This document shows positions 9,878 to 54,521 of a stretch of 54,947 bases of DNA, piece after piece. This stretch comes from Thermodesulfobacteriota bacterium. Lineage in GTDB: Bacteria; Desulfobacterota; Anaeroferrophillalia; Anaeroferrophillales; Tharpellaceae. The stretch lies in NCBI GenBank assembly GCA_024763535.1, contig JANTFH010000012.1:1-54947 (forward strand). The letters run 5' to 3'. Position 1 is the stretch's first letter. Every line of letters starts with the position of its first letter. The notes under the pieces were generated by a model. That model saw only the letters and a program-made list of their open reading frames with translations. It did not search any database and was not told the DNA's origin. Both the position numbers and the translations under genes were made by a program.

Positions 9878-11404
9878 TCAAACTTTGACGCCGCGATATT
9901 TTCTGTAATCAATATCATGATTTGCTACTTTATACTGAATCACGCGTTTAGTTGTACCCAGCAGTCTTGCCGCTCTTGTCTGGTTGCCCCGGGTTTTTTT
10001 CAGCGCCTCAACAATAAGGGTGGTCTCGTAGGCTTTAACCATCGCCTGAAAACTGGCACCGGCCTCGGCTCCGGAATCATTCTCATCCCCAGCTGCGGCC
10101 AACTGCAGTGAGGGCGGCAGTTGATAACCATGGATAATGCCATCGGTGGCCAGAACCATGGCCCGCTCCAGGGCATTCTGCAATTCCCGAACATTACCGG
10201 GCCAGTGATAGGAGATCAGCATATCAATTGCCGAAGAGTCAATCCGGGAGATCTTACAACCCATCTCTTCACCCCGTTTCTGAACAAAGAAATCGGCCAA
10301 AAGTATAATATCGGCTCCGCGTTCGCGCAACGGCGGCAGATGAATCGGAAAAACGCTCAAGCGATAAAACAGATCCGAACGGAAGCGACCGGCGGCGACC
10401 TCTTTCTCAAGATCGCGGTTAGTGGCAATCACCACCCGGGCGTCGCTTTTGATGGTTTTACCACCGCCGACCCGTTCGAACTCACGCTCCTCTAAAACCC
10501 GGAGCAGTTTAACCTGTGAAGCGAGCGGCAACTCCCCGATCTCATCAAGAAAAATTGTGCCACCGTGGGCTAACTCAAACTTGCCAATCCGTTTCTCGAT
10601 AGCTCCGGTAAAAGCCCCTTTCTGATGACCGAAAATCTCACTCTCAACCAGATTCTCAGGAATTGCGCCACAATCGAGCCGCACCATCGGCTTATCACGG
10701 CGTGGACTCCGATAGTGAATCTCGCTGGCCACCAGTCCTTTGCCGGTGCCGGTTTCACCGGTAATTAAAACCGTCGTCAGAGTCTGAGCCACCTGATCAA
10801 TCTGCTCAGCGACTCGACGCATGGAATTGGCATTACCGACCACCGTACCCATGGGACCGTGCCGGCCAATGGCCTCTTTCAAGCGGGCATTCTCCTCCTG
10901 CACCCGGCGCCCATGCACCCGCGGCGCCAGAAGATTGGCCACCACTTCGAGGAATTCAAGTTCGCCGCCCAGATCAGCTCCTTTGGCCGCCCGGTCAACG
11001 GAGAGCGCCCCCACTACCTGACCGGCAAATTTTATCGGCACACAGAGAAAAGCCAGGGTCGAACGATCGATTTTACTGCGGGCTCCGGAGCGGTCCAGAA
11101 AGAGCGACTCCTGATCGATTCGGGGAATCGCGATCGGCCGCCCGCTGGCGACGACACGCCCGGTTATACCTTCACCGAGACGATAGACGACCGGCTCCGA
11201 GGTATCCGGAATTCCATAAGTAATATCAACATGAATCTGTTCGAGATCACGGCGATAGAGTGAGATCATACCCCGTTTCATCCCGGTCAGCCGCGCCAGA
11301 CAGACCAAAATTGCCTTCATGGTCTCCTGAAACTCACCCTCACCGGCTAAAAGCTGGGCGATCCGGGCCAGAACCGTAAAATATACCGACTGGTTGTCAA
11401 TCAT
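9878..11404 (-). CDS. NifA-like sigma-54-dependent transcriptional activator (GAF-AAA-Fis HTH)
   Basis: An enhancer-binding protein of 508 residues with the NifA architecture. It has a GAF sensor (~residues 5-165), an AAA+ domain (~185-420) and a Fis-type helix-turn-helix at the end ([20 protein letters not shown]). Walker A GETGTGKG is at 216-223, the sigma-54 contact loop GAFTGA at 263-268, and Walker [13 protein letters not shown] near 281-292. The linker before the HTH has no cysteines, so the oxygen-sensing Cys motif of rhizobial NifA is absent. The start was placed at the ATG at 11404, five codons inside the longest frame, because GAGGAG lies just upstream; this site overlaps the stop of the preceding DUF166 gene, implying translational coupling. 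Probable target is the sigma-54 promoter before amtB. It could be NifA, AnfA or another nitrogen activator. Confidence 0.88.
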
Positions 11405-11408
11405 AAGA

Positions 11409-12074
11409 CTACTCCTCATTTACCGCCGCATCCCGCAAAGCCCGCTCTAAAGCCTTGAAATGCATGTCCGCGGCCAGATGAATCGGACTTTTACCCCAGA
11501 GCGGGTCCCATCCGGCCGGATCAGCGCTGCACTGAAACTGAACATCCAGACCATATCGGACGGCAGCTTCAGAAGCTTCCATACCCTTCAGTTTTTCCAG
11601 AGCCCGCCAGGTCGCCCCACAGGGAGCCCCACGCAACACAGCAATCGACTTTATCCGGCCCGCTTCGACTTCAACCTTTAACTCCGGCGTGCCGTAACGC
11701 TCTCCATACTCTCCCAGCCAGACCAGCCGGGGCAGAGAGCATCATATAGGAGGGGTGGCCAGCTGCTCCGCAACCGGATATTTTTTGGCCGAAGCGACAA
11801 AAGGTATCCCGGCCTCCCGGCAGCGTTTTAAGAGTTCGGCCGCGAGATCGGGATGGCGCAGAAAACCGAGCACCAGGTCAGCCTCAAGTTCGGTCGGCAA
11901 ATAGTTTTCGGGCTCGTCAATCATCGCCGGCAGTGGCTCATCGATCGAAAAGACTTCCAAGGCAAAACATCCCGGCGCATAATGCTCAATACCGGCAATC
12001 TTCTTCTCACCGCTGCCGAGCTCCTGAAACACCAAGATCCGCTGAACCGGATCACCTCCACATCCATTTTCCAT
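11409..12074 (-). CDS. dfsP: DUF166-family protein with in-frame UGA, probable selenoprotein (DfsP-like)
   Basis: Two pieces in the same frame are separated only by a TGA at 11742-11744. Reading through gives one protein of 221 residues with selenocysteine at 111. The first part ends VAEQLATPPI. The second begins CSLPRLVW and continues with VLRGAPCGATW and GKSPIHLAADMHFKALE, typical of DUF166. The UGA codon stands directly before a conserved-looking Cys, giving a Sec-Cys pair. A hairpin with a GGUC apical loop begins 2 nt after the UGA. The start at 12074 has GGGAG about 11 nt upstream; a longer frame to 12146 lacks a ribosome site. From memory, NCBI names a family 'DUF166 family (seleno)protein DfsP'. 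Biochemical function is unknown. The stop codon overlaps the ribosome site of the NifA-like activator. The alternative is a pseudogene with one nonsense mutation. Confidence 0.8.
11709..11741 (-). promoter_or_regulatory. Bacterial SECIS-like hairpin after the UGA codon
   Basis: Directly after the UGA the minus strand forms an outer stem CTCTC/GAGAG plus an inner GCC/GGC helix. The apical part contains CTGGTCTG. The GGU starts 17 nt after the UGA, close to the roughly 18 nt of E. coli fdhF, whose loop also reads GGUCUG. This is the element SelB would bind to direct selenocysteine insertion. Confidence 0.72.
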
Positions 12075-52973: not shown

Positions 52974-54521
52974 TTAATTCGAGGTTGGTGTAGTGAGTTT
53001 CTCCATTGCCTTGTCCAGACTGAAGCTGGCCGGCTTCATCCGTGGCGGGAACTCCTTAAAGGTTTTCAGGAAGTTGCCGACATATTCCTGGGCCGGAACC
53101 ACGAGAAAGACATGATCCAGGAGCCAGTCGTAATAGGTGTTGGAGGTAATCTGGGCCCGCTCGTAGGGATCCCGGCGCAGGTTAAAAATCAGCGGAAGCC
53201 GCAGGGGGGTGAACGGGTTGGCCCACAGTTTCATGGTTCCCGTGGCCCGCTGTTCCATGAAAATCAATTTCCAGTCATCATAGCGCAGGGCGGTCAGATC
53301 GCCGTCATCGGAAAAATAGAAAATCTCGTGCCGGGGACCATGTTTCTCCTTGCCGGTGAGATAGGGCAGGAAGTTATAACCGTCCAGATGGACACGATAG
53401 TGGCGGCCGATGGCATCAACGCCGGTGGTCTTAAGTTCTTCCTTGATATTGGCATCTCCGGCCGCGGCCAGAAAGGTGGGCATCCAGTCCATGTGGTGCA
53501 TGATCTCGTTGGACCAGACCCCGGCTTTGATATGACCGGGCCAGCGCACCATGGCCGGCACGCGAAAGGCACCTTCCCAGTTGGTGTTCTTCTCGCTGCG
53601 GAAGGGGGTCATGGCCGCATCCGGCCAGGAGTTCATGTGGGGACCATTATCGGTGGAGTAGAAGAGTATAGTGTTGTCGGCGATCCCCAGATCGTCCAGA
53701 ACCTTCAGAAACTTGCCGATGTGCATATCATGCTCGACCATGCCGTCGGAATACTCGTTCTGGCCGGAGATACCGCGCAACTCCTTCTTGACATGGGTAC
53801 GGAAATGCATACGCGTACCGTTCCACCAGACAAAGAAGGGCTTACCGGCCTTCACCGCCCGCTCGATGAAGTCGATGGCCGCGGCCGATGTCTCGTCGTC
53901 CACGGTCTCCATCCGCTTCTTGGTCAACGGACCGGTATCTTCGATCTTGCCGTCGGCCAGTGAATGGATAACGCCTCGGGGGCCATATTTTTTGTGAAAT
54001 TCAGGACTCTTCGGGTAGTCCGGCAGTTCGGGCTCTTCCTCGGCATTGAGGTGGTAGAGATTGCCGAAGAATTCATCGAAACCGTGATTGGTGGGCAGAT
54101 GCTCGTCCAGGTCCCCGAAATGGTTCTTGCCGAACTGGCCGGTCATGTAGCCCCGGGCCTTCAAGAGGCCGGCAATGGTCGGATCCTTCTCATTGATTCC
54201 CTCTTTGGCGCCGGGCAAACCGACTTTGGAGAGCCCGCTGCGAAAGACTGACTGCCCCAACATGAAAGTGGAGCGCCCGGCCGTGCACGACTGTTCTCCG
54301 TAATAATCGGTAAAGGTCATGCCCTCATGGGATATGCGATCAATATTGGGGGTTTGGAAGCCCATTAATCCATGGGTGTAGGCGCTGATATCAGACTGGC
54401 CGATATCATCACCCCAGACCACCAGGATATTGGGTTTTTCCGCTGCGGCTACGGCCCCGGCGGCACCCATTATCAGGGCCAGAACCATAATCGTTGAAAT
54501 CAGCCATACTCTTTTCTGCAT
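52974..54521 (-). CDS. Exported sulfatase (arylsulfatase family)
   Basis: A 515-residue enzyme with a signal peptide (TIMVLALIMGAAGAVAAA, cleavage about 27). It hydrolyses sulfate esters in the periplasm. The metal-binding start is NILVVWGDDIG (Asp38-39). The catalytic residue is Cys79 in CTAGR, the C-x-A-x-R form that must be turned into formylglycine. Later motifs include GYMTGQFGKNHFGD and FYSTDNGPHMNSWPD. The full length and end (ITSNTYYDWLLDHVFLVVP) fit arylsulfatases found in Desulfobacterota and Planctomycetes. No formylglycine-generating enzyme lies in the window. TGGAGGG precedes the ATG. Confidence 0.95.
   Translation of the reverse strand: MQKRVWLISTIMVLALIMGAAGAVAAAEKPNILVVWGDDIGQSDISAYTHGLMGFQTPNIDRISHEGMTFTDYYGEQSCTAGRSTFMLGQSVFRSGLSKVGLPGAKEGINEKDPTIAGLLKARGYMTGQFGKNHFGDLDEHLPTNHGFDEFFGNLYHLNAEEEPELPDYPKSPEFHKKYGPRGVIHSLADGKIEDTGPLTKKRMETVDDETSAAAIDFIERAVKAGKPFFVWWNGTRMHFRTHVKKELRGISGQNEYSDGMVEHDMHIGKFLKVLDDLGIADNTILFYSTDNGPHMNSWPDAAMTPFRSEKNTNWEGAFRVPAMVRWPGHIKAGVWSNEIMHHMDWMPTFLAAAGDANIKEELKTTGVDAIGRHYRVHLDGYNFLPYLTGKEKHGPRHEIFYFSDDGDLTALRYDDWKLIFMEQRATGTMKLWANPFTPLRLPLIFNLRRDPYERAQITSNTYYDWLLDHVFLVVPAQEYVGNFLKTFKEFPPRMKPASFSLDKAMEKLTTPTSN

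Follow-up and report, generated by a model that had tools for sequence, protein, structure and literature searches.

Standard gene calling cuts one locus in two at a TGA in the stretch of DNA analysed here (54,947 nucleotides of contig JANTFH010000012.1 from a Thermodesulfobacteriota bacterium; hereafter, the window). This raises the question of whether the gene is broken or whether the UGA is read as selenocysteine (Sec) and, in the latter case, what the encoded protein might do. An earlier note, made from the letters of the window, had favored recoding and had foreseen that automated annotation would divide the gene, as it indeed does; the note gave neither the strand of the gene nor a function. 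The host genome (2.6 Mb in 126 contigs, 94.65% complete) is placed near Candidatus Tharpella of the Desulfobacterota, with Candidatus Tharpella aukensis among its nearest named relatives.

One reading frame with a single interruption

The gene, dfsP, encodes a single protein of 221 residues with Sec as residue 111 (Table 1). Between its ATG at 12074 and the TAG at 11409-11411, the frame has TGA 11742-11744 as its sole interruption, in agreement with the view of the earlier note that two apparent neighbors are separated by this codon only. The context of the UGA, ATPPI-U-C-SLPR, corresponds to the Sec-Cys pair that had been placed after LATPPI, and the start of the gene is the same in most Tharpella orthologues. 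The joined product matches the NCBIfam model NF041372, "DUF166 family (seleno)protein", from end to end (306.1 bits, model positions 1-203 of 203), well above its curated cut-off of 200 bits, and it also matches DUF166 of Pfam. The match to NF041372 extends over both sides of the UGA, and the family name given in the earlier note, DfsP, proved to be the correct one. In the window gene TGA is followed by TGC (11744-11739), which is the arrangement of Sec or Cys before an invariant Cys that belongs to this family. DfsP is a listed prokaryotic selenoprotein family, the first report of which is cited as Zhang and Gladyshev 2007; the two papers that list it give no motif for the family (PMC9312934, PMC13188914).

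A scan of the window for other UGA-recoded genes yielded no convincing case; the top-scoring candidate, at 53961, is an ordinary stop codon with the ATG of the next gene directly after it. The locus had no match among plasmid records.

Table 1. Features of the dfsP locus, in window coordinates
Feature	Position	Strand	Basis
dfsP coding sequence	11409-12074	minus	NF041372, 306 bits (residues 11-214); PF02593, 160 bits; shared start
In-frame UGA, selenocysteine 111 (very probable)	11742-11744	minus	80 relatives: 64 TGA, 16 TGC/TGT, 0 other
Cys112 codon	11739-11741	minus	Invariant in 89/89 and 15/15 DUF166 sequences examined
N-terminal alpha/beta half, residues 1-95	11790-12074	minus	AlphaFold2 mean pLDDT 91; strand-helix alternation
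C-terminal half, residues 96-221, predicted IscU-like fold; carries U111, C112, C152, C182, H199 and H205	11412-11789	minus	pLDDT 89.7; Foldseek matches to IscU/ISCU/SufU; invariant columns
Bacterial SECIS upper stem-loop, 7 bp	11713-11731	minus	-18 kcal/mol; shifted-register pairs in 12/12 Tharpellaceae; covariation in 52 other UGA relatives
Apical loop GGUCU	11720-11724	minus	17 nt after UGA; GG at first two loop positions in 64/64 UGA relatives
NifA-like sigma-54 regulator, downstream of dfsP	9878-11419	minus	Pfam Sigma54_activat and GAF; TIGR01817, 471.5 bits

Conservation of the UGA codon and of the segment that follows it

The comparison covers 80 relatives from named genomes, all found in one scan of GTDB species genomes. 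Their codon at residue 111 is TGA in 64, TGC in 14 and TGT in two, so that each of the 80 has either Sec or Cys at this position. An error of sequencing or assembly might be imagined to have made a TGA from the Cys codon TGC or TGT, an idea that gains some appeal from Cys being the alternative residue in the relatives. However, genomes that were assembled independently, some from the same genus and some from other families, share the TGA at this codon, which is therefore not a sequencing error; this settles the doubt about resequencing that the earlier note had left standing, and the chance that the TGA is an artefact is practically negligible.

When the window gene is compared with nine Tharpella orthologues, the differences after the UGA fall on codon positions 1, 2 and 3 in the numbers 105, 68 and 411, and 345 of the codon changes are synonymous versus 122 that are non-synonymous. 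The segment after the UGA is evidently under selection as protein. The host genome also contains the complete set of genes for selenocysteine insertion: selA (TIGR00474, 588.9 bits), selB (TIGR00475, 411 bits), selD (TIGR00476, 371 bits) and selC, the latter encoding a tRNA-Sec with anticodon TCA. It should be noted that the selD gene itself (L019, G000:C15:46111-47046) has one in-frame TGA, and SelD of this host is probably a selenoprotein too.

The SECIS hairpin and its apparently displaced stem in Tharpellaceae

The hairpin that follows the UGA (z = -2.67) was equalled by 5 of 200 shuffled sequences; taken alone, the signal in the window is modest, whereas across the relatives it is strong. 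All limits of the published model of bacterial SECIS elements (loop of 3-9 nt, stem of 4-16 bp, G at loop positions 1 and 2, a distance of 16-37 nt to the UGA, energy of -7.5 kcal/mol or lower) are respected, with a loop of 5 nt, a stem of 7 bp, GG, a distance of 17 nt and -18 kcal/mol. A search of Rfam, at gathering thresholds and at E-values up to 10, returned no SECIS family at this hairpin. Outside Tharpellaceae there are 52 UGA relatives, and in these 93.2% of the cells of the stem are paired, versus at most 64% for slid versions; the covariation score is 0.315 versus 0.175 after shuffling, a value that none of 500 shuffles reached, and three pairs change on both sides. The 16 Cys relatives have GG in the loop in only about half of the cases and pair at 4.25 of the seven positions on average, and most of them have lost the hairpin. 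Three of the 16 retain at least six pairs, in keeping with a descent of some Cys forms from Sec forms.

In all 12 Tharpellaceae genes, the common register of the stem is broken at two of the seven pairs. When the register is slid by one base, these genes pair at 6.92 of seven positions on average, the distance between loop and UGA being unchanged, and the window gene agrees with this arrangement. We infer from the pairing that the stem has slid by one base in Tharpellaceae under a fixed GGUCU loop, a new detail that amounts to a natural test of what SelB recognises.

Taken together, the UGA/Cys pattern, the covariation of the SECIS, the third-position changes and the Sec machinery indicate that the window gene is a further member of the already catalogued selenoprotein family DfsP and not a broken gene, and we hold it highly probable that its UGA111 is recoded via the standard SelB/SECIS route. 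If the UGA were a true stop, the locus would be a pseudogene in decay or a pair of small genes that overlap, and standard gene calling does split it here. This reading, which we consider very unlikely, is at odds with the presence of the same UGA in 64 of the 80 relatives, with downstream changes that lie mainly at third positions, with a SECIS that covaries and is mostly degraded in the Cys relatives, and with the full Sec machinery in the genome; these same observations bear out the earlier claim of a true recoded gene. During translation, tRNA-Sec(UCA) would decode UGA111 as selenocysteine, with SelB on the hairpin 17 nt downstream as its guide. The result restores a gene that is divided by standard ORF calling, and it confirms a catalogued family in a poorly known lineage.

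Predicted structure and conserved residues

The AlphaFold2 model of full-length DfsP has a mean pLDDT of 91, and residues 96-221 were also modelled alone, from an alignment of 50 sequences. When this C-terminal model was compared by Foldseek with the PDB (350,542 chains), 21 of the 22 top matches were IscU, ISCU2 or SufU, the best being 5wkp_H (probability 0.98, TM 0.51, 2.9 A over 94 columns). None of the matches is individually significant (none at E < 0.001, best E 0.16), and they are not independent because the PDB has many IscU entries; even so, the agreement on a single family is hard to explain by accident, and an IscU fold is predicted for the C-terminal half of DfsP. With the whole protein as query, Foldseek gave only scattered alpha/beta matches, ISCU appearing at rank 35.

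At the level of sequence, a search for solved structures gave no match to DfsP, and Pfam NifU_N did not match any of 50 family members at E <= 1. The direct HHalign comparison of DfsP with NifU_N was not significant, and the wider DUF166 profile brought a modest gain only; the probabilities ranged from 1.5 to 8% over these comparisons. NifU_N outscored all 91 decoy profiles, which are a small set from one group of organisms, and its alignment is colinear and puts C152 of DUF166 on a cluster Cys of IscU. TSCPD was considered as the nearest fold and set aside; it gave weak single matches only (E 0.0076 and 0.014), and HHalign gave no match to a TSCPD profile from Desulfobacterota. The loci G031:C97:6197-6454 and G040:C5:119265-119522 are picked up with both TSCPD and NifU_N, a hint at a fold common to both domains.

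U/C111, C112, C152 and C182 are invariant in DfsP. DfsP and the 15 other DUF166 proteins examined all have C112, C152, a Cys at position 182 or adjacent to it, and H199; in these 15, residue 111 is Phe (11 proteins) or Leu (four). Sec111 therefore adjoins the Cys core of the family and replaces no member of it.

Genomic neighborhood of dfsP and of other DUF166 genes

A second ATG of the NifA-like sigma-54 regulator, at 11404, lies 4 nt past the dfsP stop, and the two genes are likely to be co-transcribed; the score of the regulator against TIGR01817 is below the cut-off of 528.85 bits. In most Tharpellaceae loci (L051-L062), such a regulator follows dfsP either directly or past a UDPGP-family gene. 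Also near dfsP in the window are nifU, nifS and two ammonium transporters.

Across all dfsP loci, no neighbor is conserved throughout. CODH/ACS genes (cdhC/cdhE within 8 kb) are near dfsP in three of the 80 loci, all of them similar and of Desulfobulbales type. Formate dehydrogenase is a neighbor in nine loci, 5-formyl-THF cyclo-ligase in six, and rubrerythrin genes stand beside dfsP in ten Desulfobulbales-type loci. Several further arrangements were seen. In Desulfobulbales-type loci, the ORF caller splits the formate dehydrogenase alpha gene near dfsP at about its Sec codon (L119:5782-7413, L108:2711-3763), and in eight loci of this type a protein of 127-152 residues with no Pfam or NCBIfam match is encoded 27-207 nt upstream of dfsP (for instance, L119:7516-7974). 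A LUD-domain gene ends 1-178 nt before dfsP at L094:7246-7998 and at 13 other loci, mostly from relatives of Desulfobacula and Desulfamplus, with both the Cys and the Sec form of dfsP.

The DUF166 genes with the Cys core, in contrast, occupy three recurrent settings in Desulfobacterota. In five genomes of one genus, the gene is flanked by cdhA and the CODH epsilon gene and stands before cdhC and cdhE; in a sixth (G028), the contig ends at the DUF166 gene and the same CODH/ACS genes follow. In four genomes of one family, it is found beside a MinD-like ATPase gene, and in one of these (G083) the same cluster includes cdhC, cdhD and cdhE. In five genomes of a third family, it has SufC/SufB-like genes on one side and an FMN reductase gene on the other, and G030 shows this setting with part of the DUF166 gene. 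The order at L194:5881-9546 is SufC-like, SufB/SmsB-like, DUF166 and FMN reductase, and such an order is possibly that of a minimal operon of SUF-like type that includes DUF166. COG1810 is represented in Methanococcus maripaludis by MMP0976, and the CO_dh gene there is MMP0984 (PMC1852104). In a sample of 297 genomes from the phylum, 60 of the 65 with DUF166 have CdhC as well, versus 143 of the 232 without (Fisher p = 7e-7, uncorrected for kinship); counted by family, the proportions are 11 of 12 and 25 of 38, a weak difference.

A possible role in metal-cluster assembly

No role for DfsP or DUF166 was found in the literature searched. The predicted IscU-like fold, together with the positions in CODH/ACS or SUF-like operons, suggests a role in metal-cluster assembly. 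DUF166 proteins would make or load metal-sulfur clusters, with CODH/ACS as the most plausible recipient, and in DfsP Sec111, beside Cys112 in the predicted IscU-like half along with C152, C182, H199 and H205, may serve as an added, softer and more reactive ligand or carrier. We tentatively propose, as a possible reading, that in cluster assembly DfsP binds or handles persulfide, selenide or a metal-sulfur cluster, that this activity is linked to CODH/ACS biogenesis in DUF166 at large, and that Sec111 is the added ligand or carrier. The more specific version, in which DUF166 proteins are two-domain assembly factors of IscU fold for CODH/ACS or some other Ni/Fe-S enzyme, and in which DfsP, as a selenium-bearing IscU-like scaffold, gained Sec as a ligand or carrier beside an ancestral Cys, is more doubtful. 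Counting against a cluster role are the weak Foldseek E-value, the low HHalign probabilities, the rarity of dfsP near CODH/ACS, and the weak difference in CdhC when counted by family.

The chief alternative is that the Sec-Cys pair has an ordinary redox role; DfsP would then be a thiol/selenol oxidoreductase, the Sec111-Cys112 selenylsulfide would cycle as a substrate is reduced, and the fold would be unrelated to cluster assembly. Redox enzymes make up the majority of known prokaryotic selenoproteins (PMC9312934), Sec in DfsP swaps with Cys only and adjoins an invariant Cys, and the rubrerythrin genes mentioned above would fit such a role. However, Cys112 is invariant also in the DUF166 proteins with Phe or Leu at residue 111, and the core function of DUF166 therefore needs no 111-112 pair; in addition, DfsP has no CxxC-type motif, and there is no thioredoxin-like fold among its best structural matches. 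We regard the redox role as possible, though somewhat doubtful. The larger value of the locus lies in this matter of function, for which the predicted fold and the operon positions give a concrete and testable proposal of cluster assembly.

Comparison with known systems

The literature searched, which excluded most subscription papers, has no mention of the slide of the SECIS stem, the predicted IscU-like fold or the operon contexts of DUF166. Within its own family, as defined by NF041372, the window gene is a full-length match with U/C-C at the equivalent place, and it differs from the 52 UGA relatives outside Tharpellaceae in a SECIS stem that is one base off. As for the hairpin itself, the earlier note had put its GGU 17 nt from the UGA, close to the value of E. 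coli fdhF; the distance is exactly 17 nt, versus 18 nt between UGA and GGU in the fdhF record, and the GGUCU loop is the same in both, whereas stem sequence and register are unlike. With the Cys-core form of DUF166 (PF02593/COG1810), which is found in methanogens and bacteria, DfsP has in common the domain layout and the conserved Cys and His residues, but not the Phe or Leu at residue 111, and dfsP usually lies outside the CODH/ACS or SUF-like operons that house the Cys-core genes of Desulfobacterota. The likeness to the IscU/NifU N-terminal scaffold consists of the predicted fold of the C-terminal half and the alignment of C152 with an IscU cluster Cys; on the other hand, NifU_N of Pfam does not detect DfsP and the TM score is about 0.5, the first Cys of IscU has no Cys at the aligned place in DfsP, and DfsP has an extra N-terminal domain as well as an insertion before the last helix.
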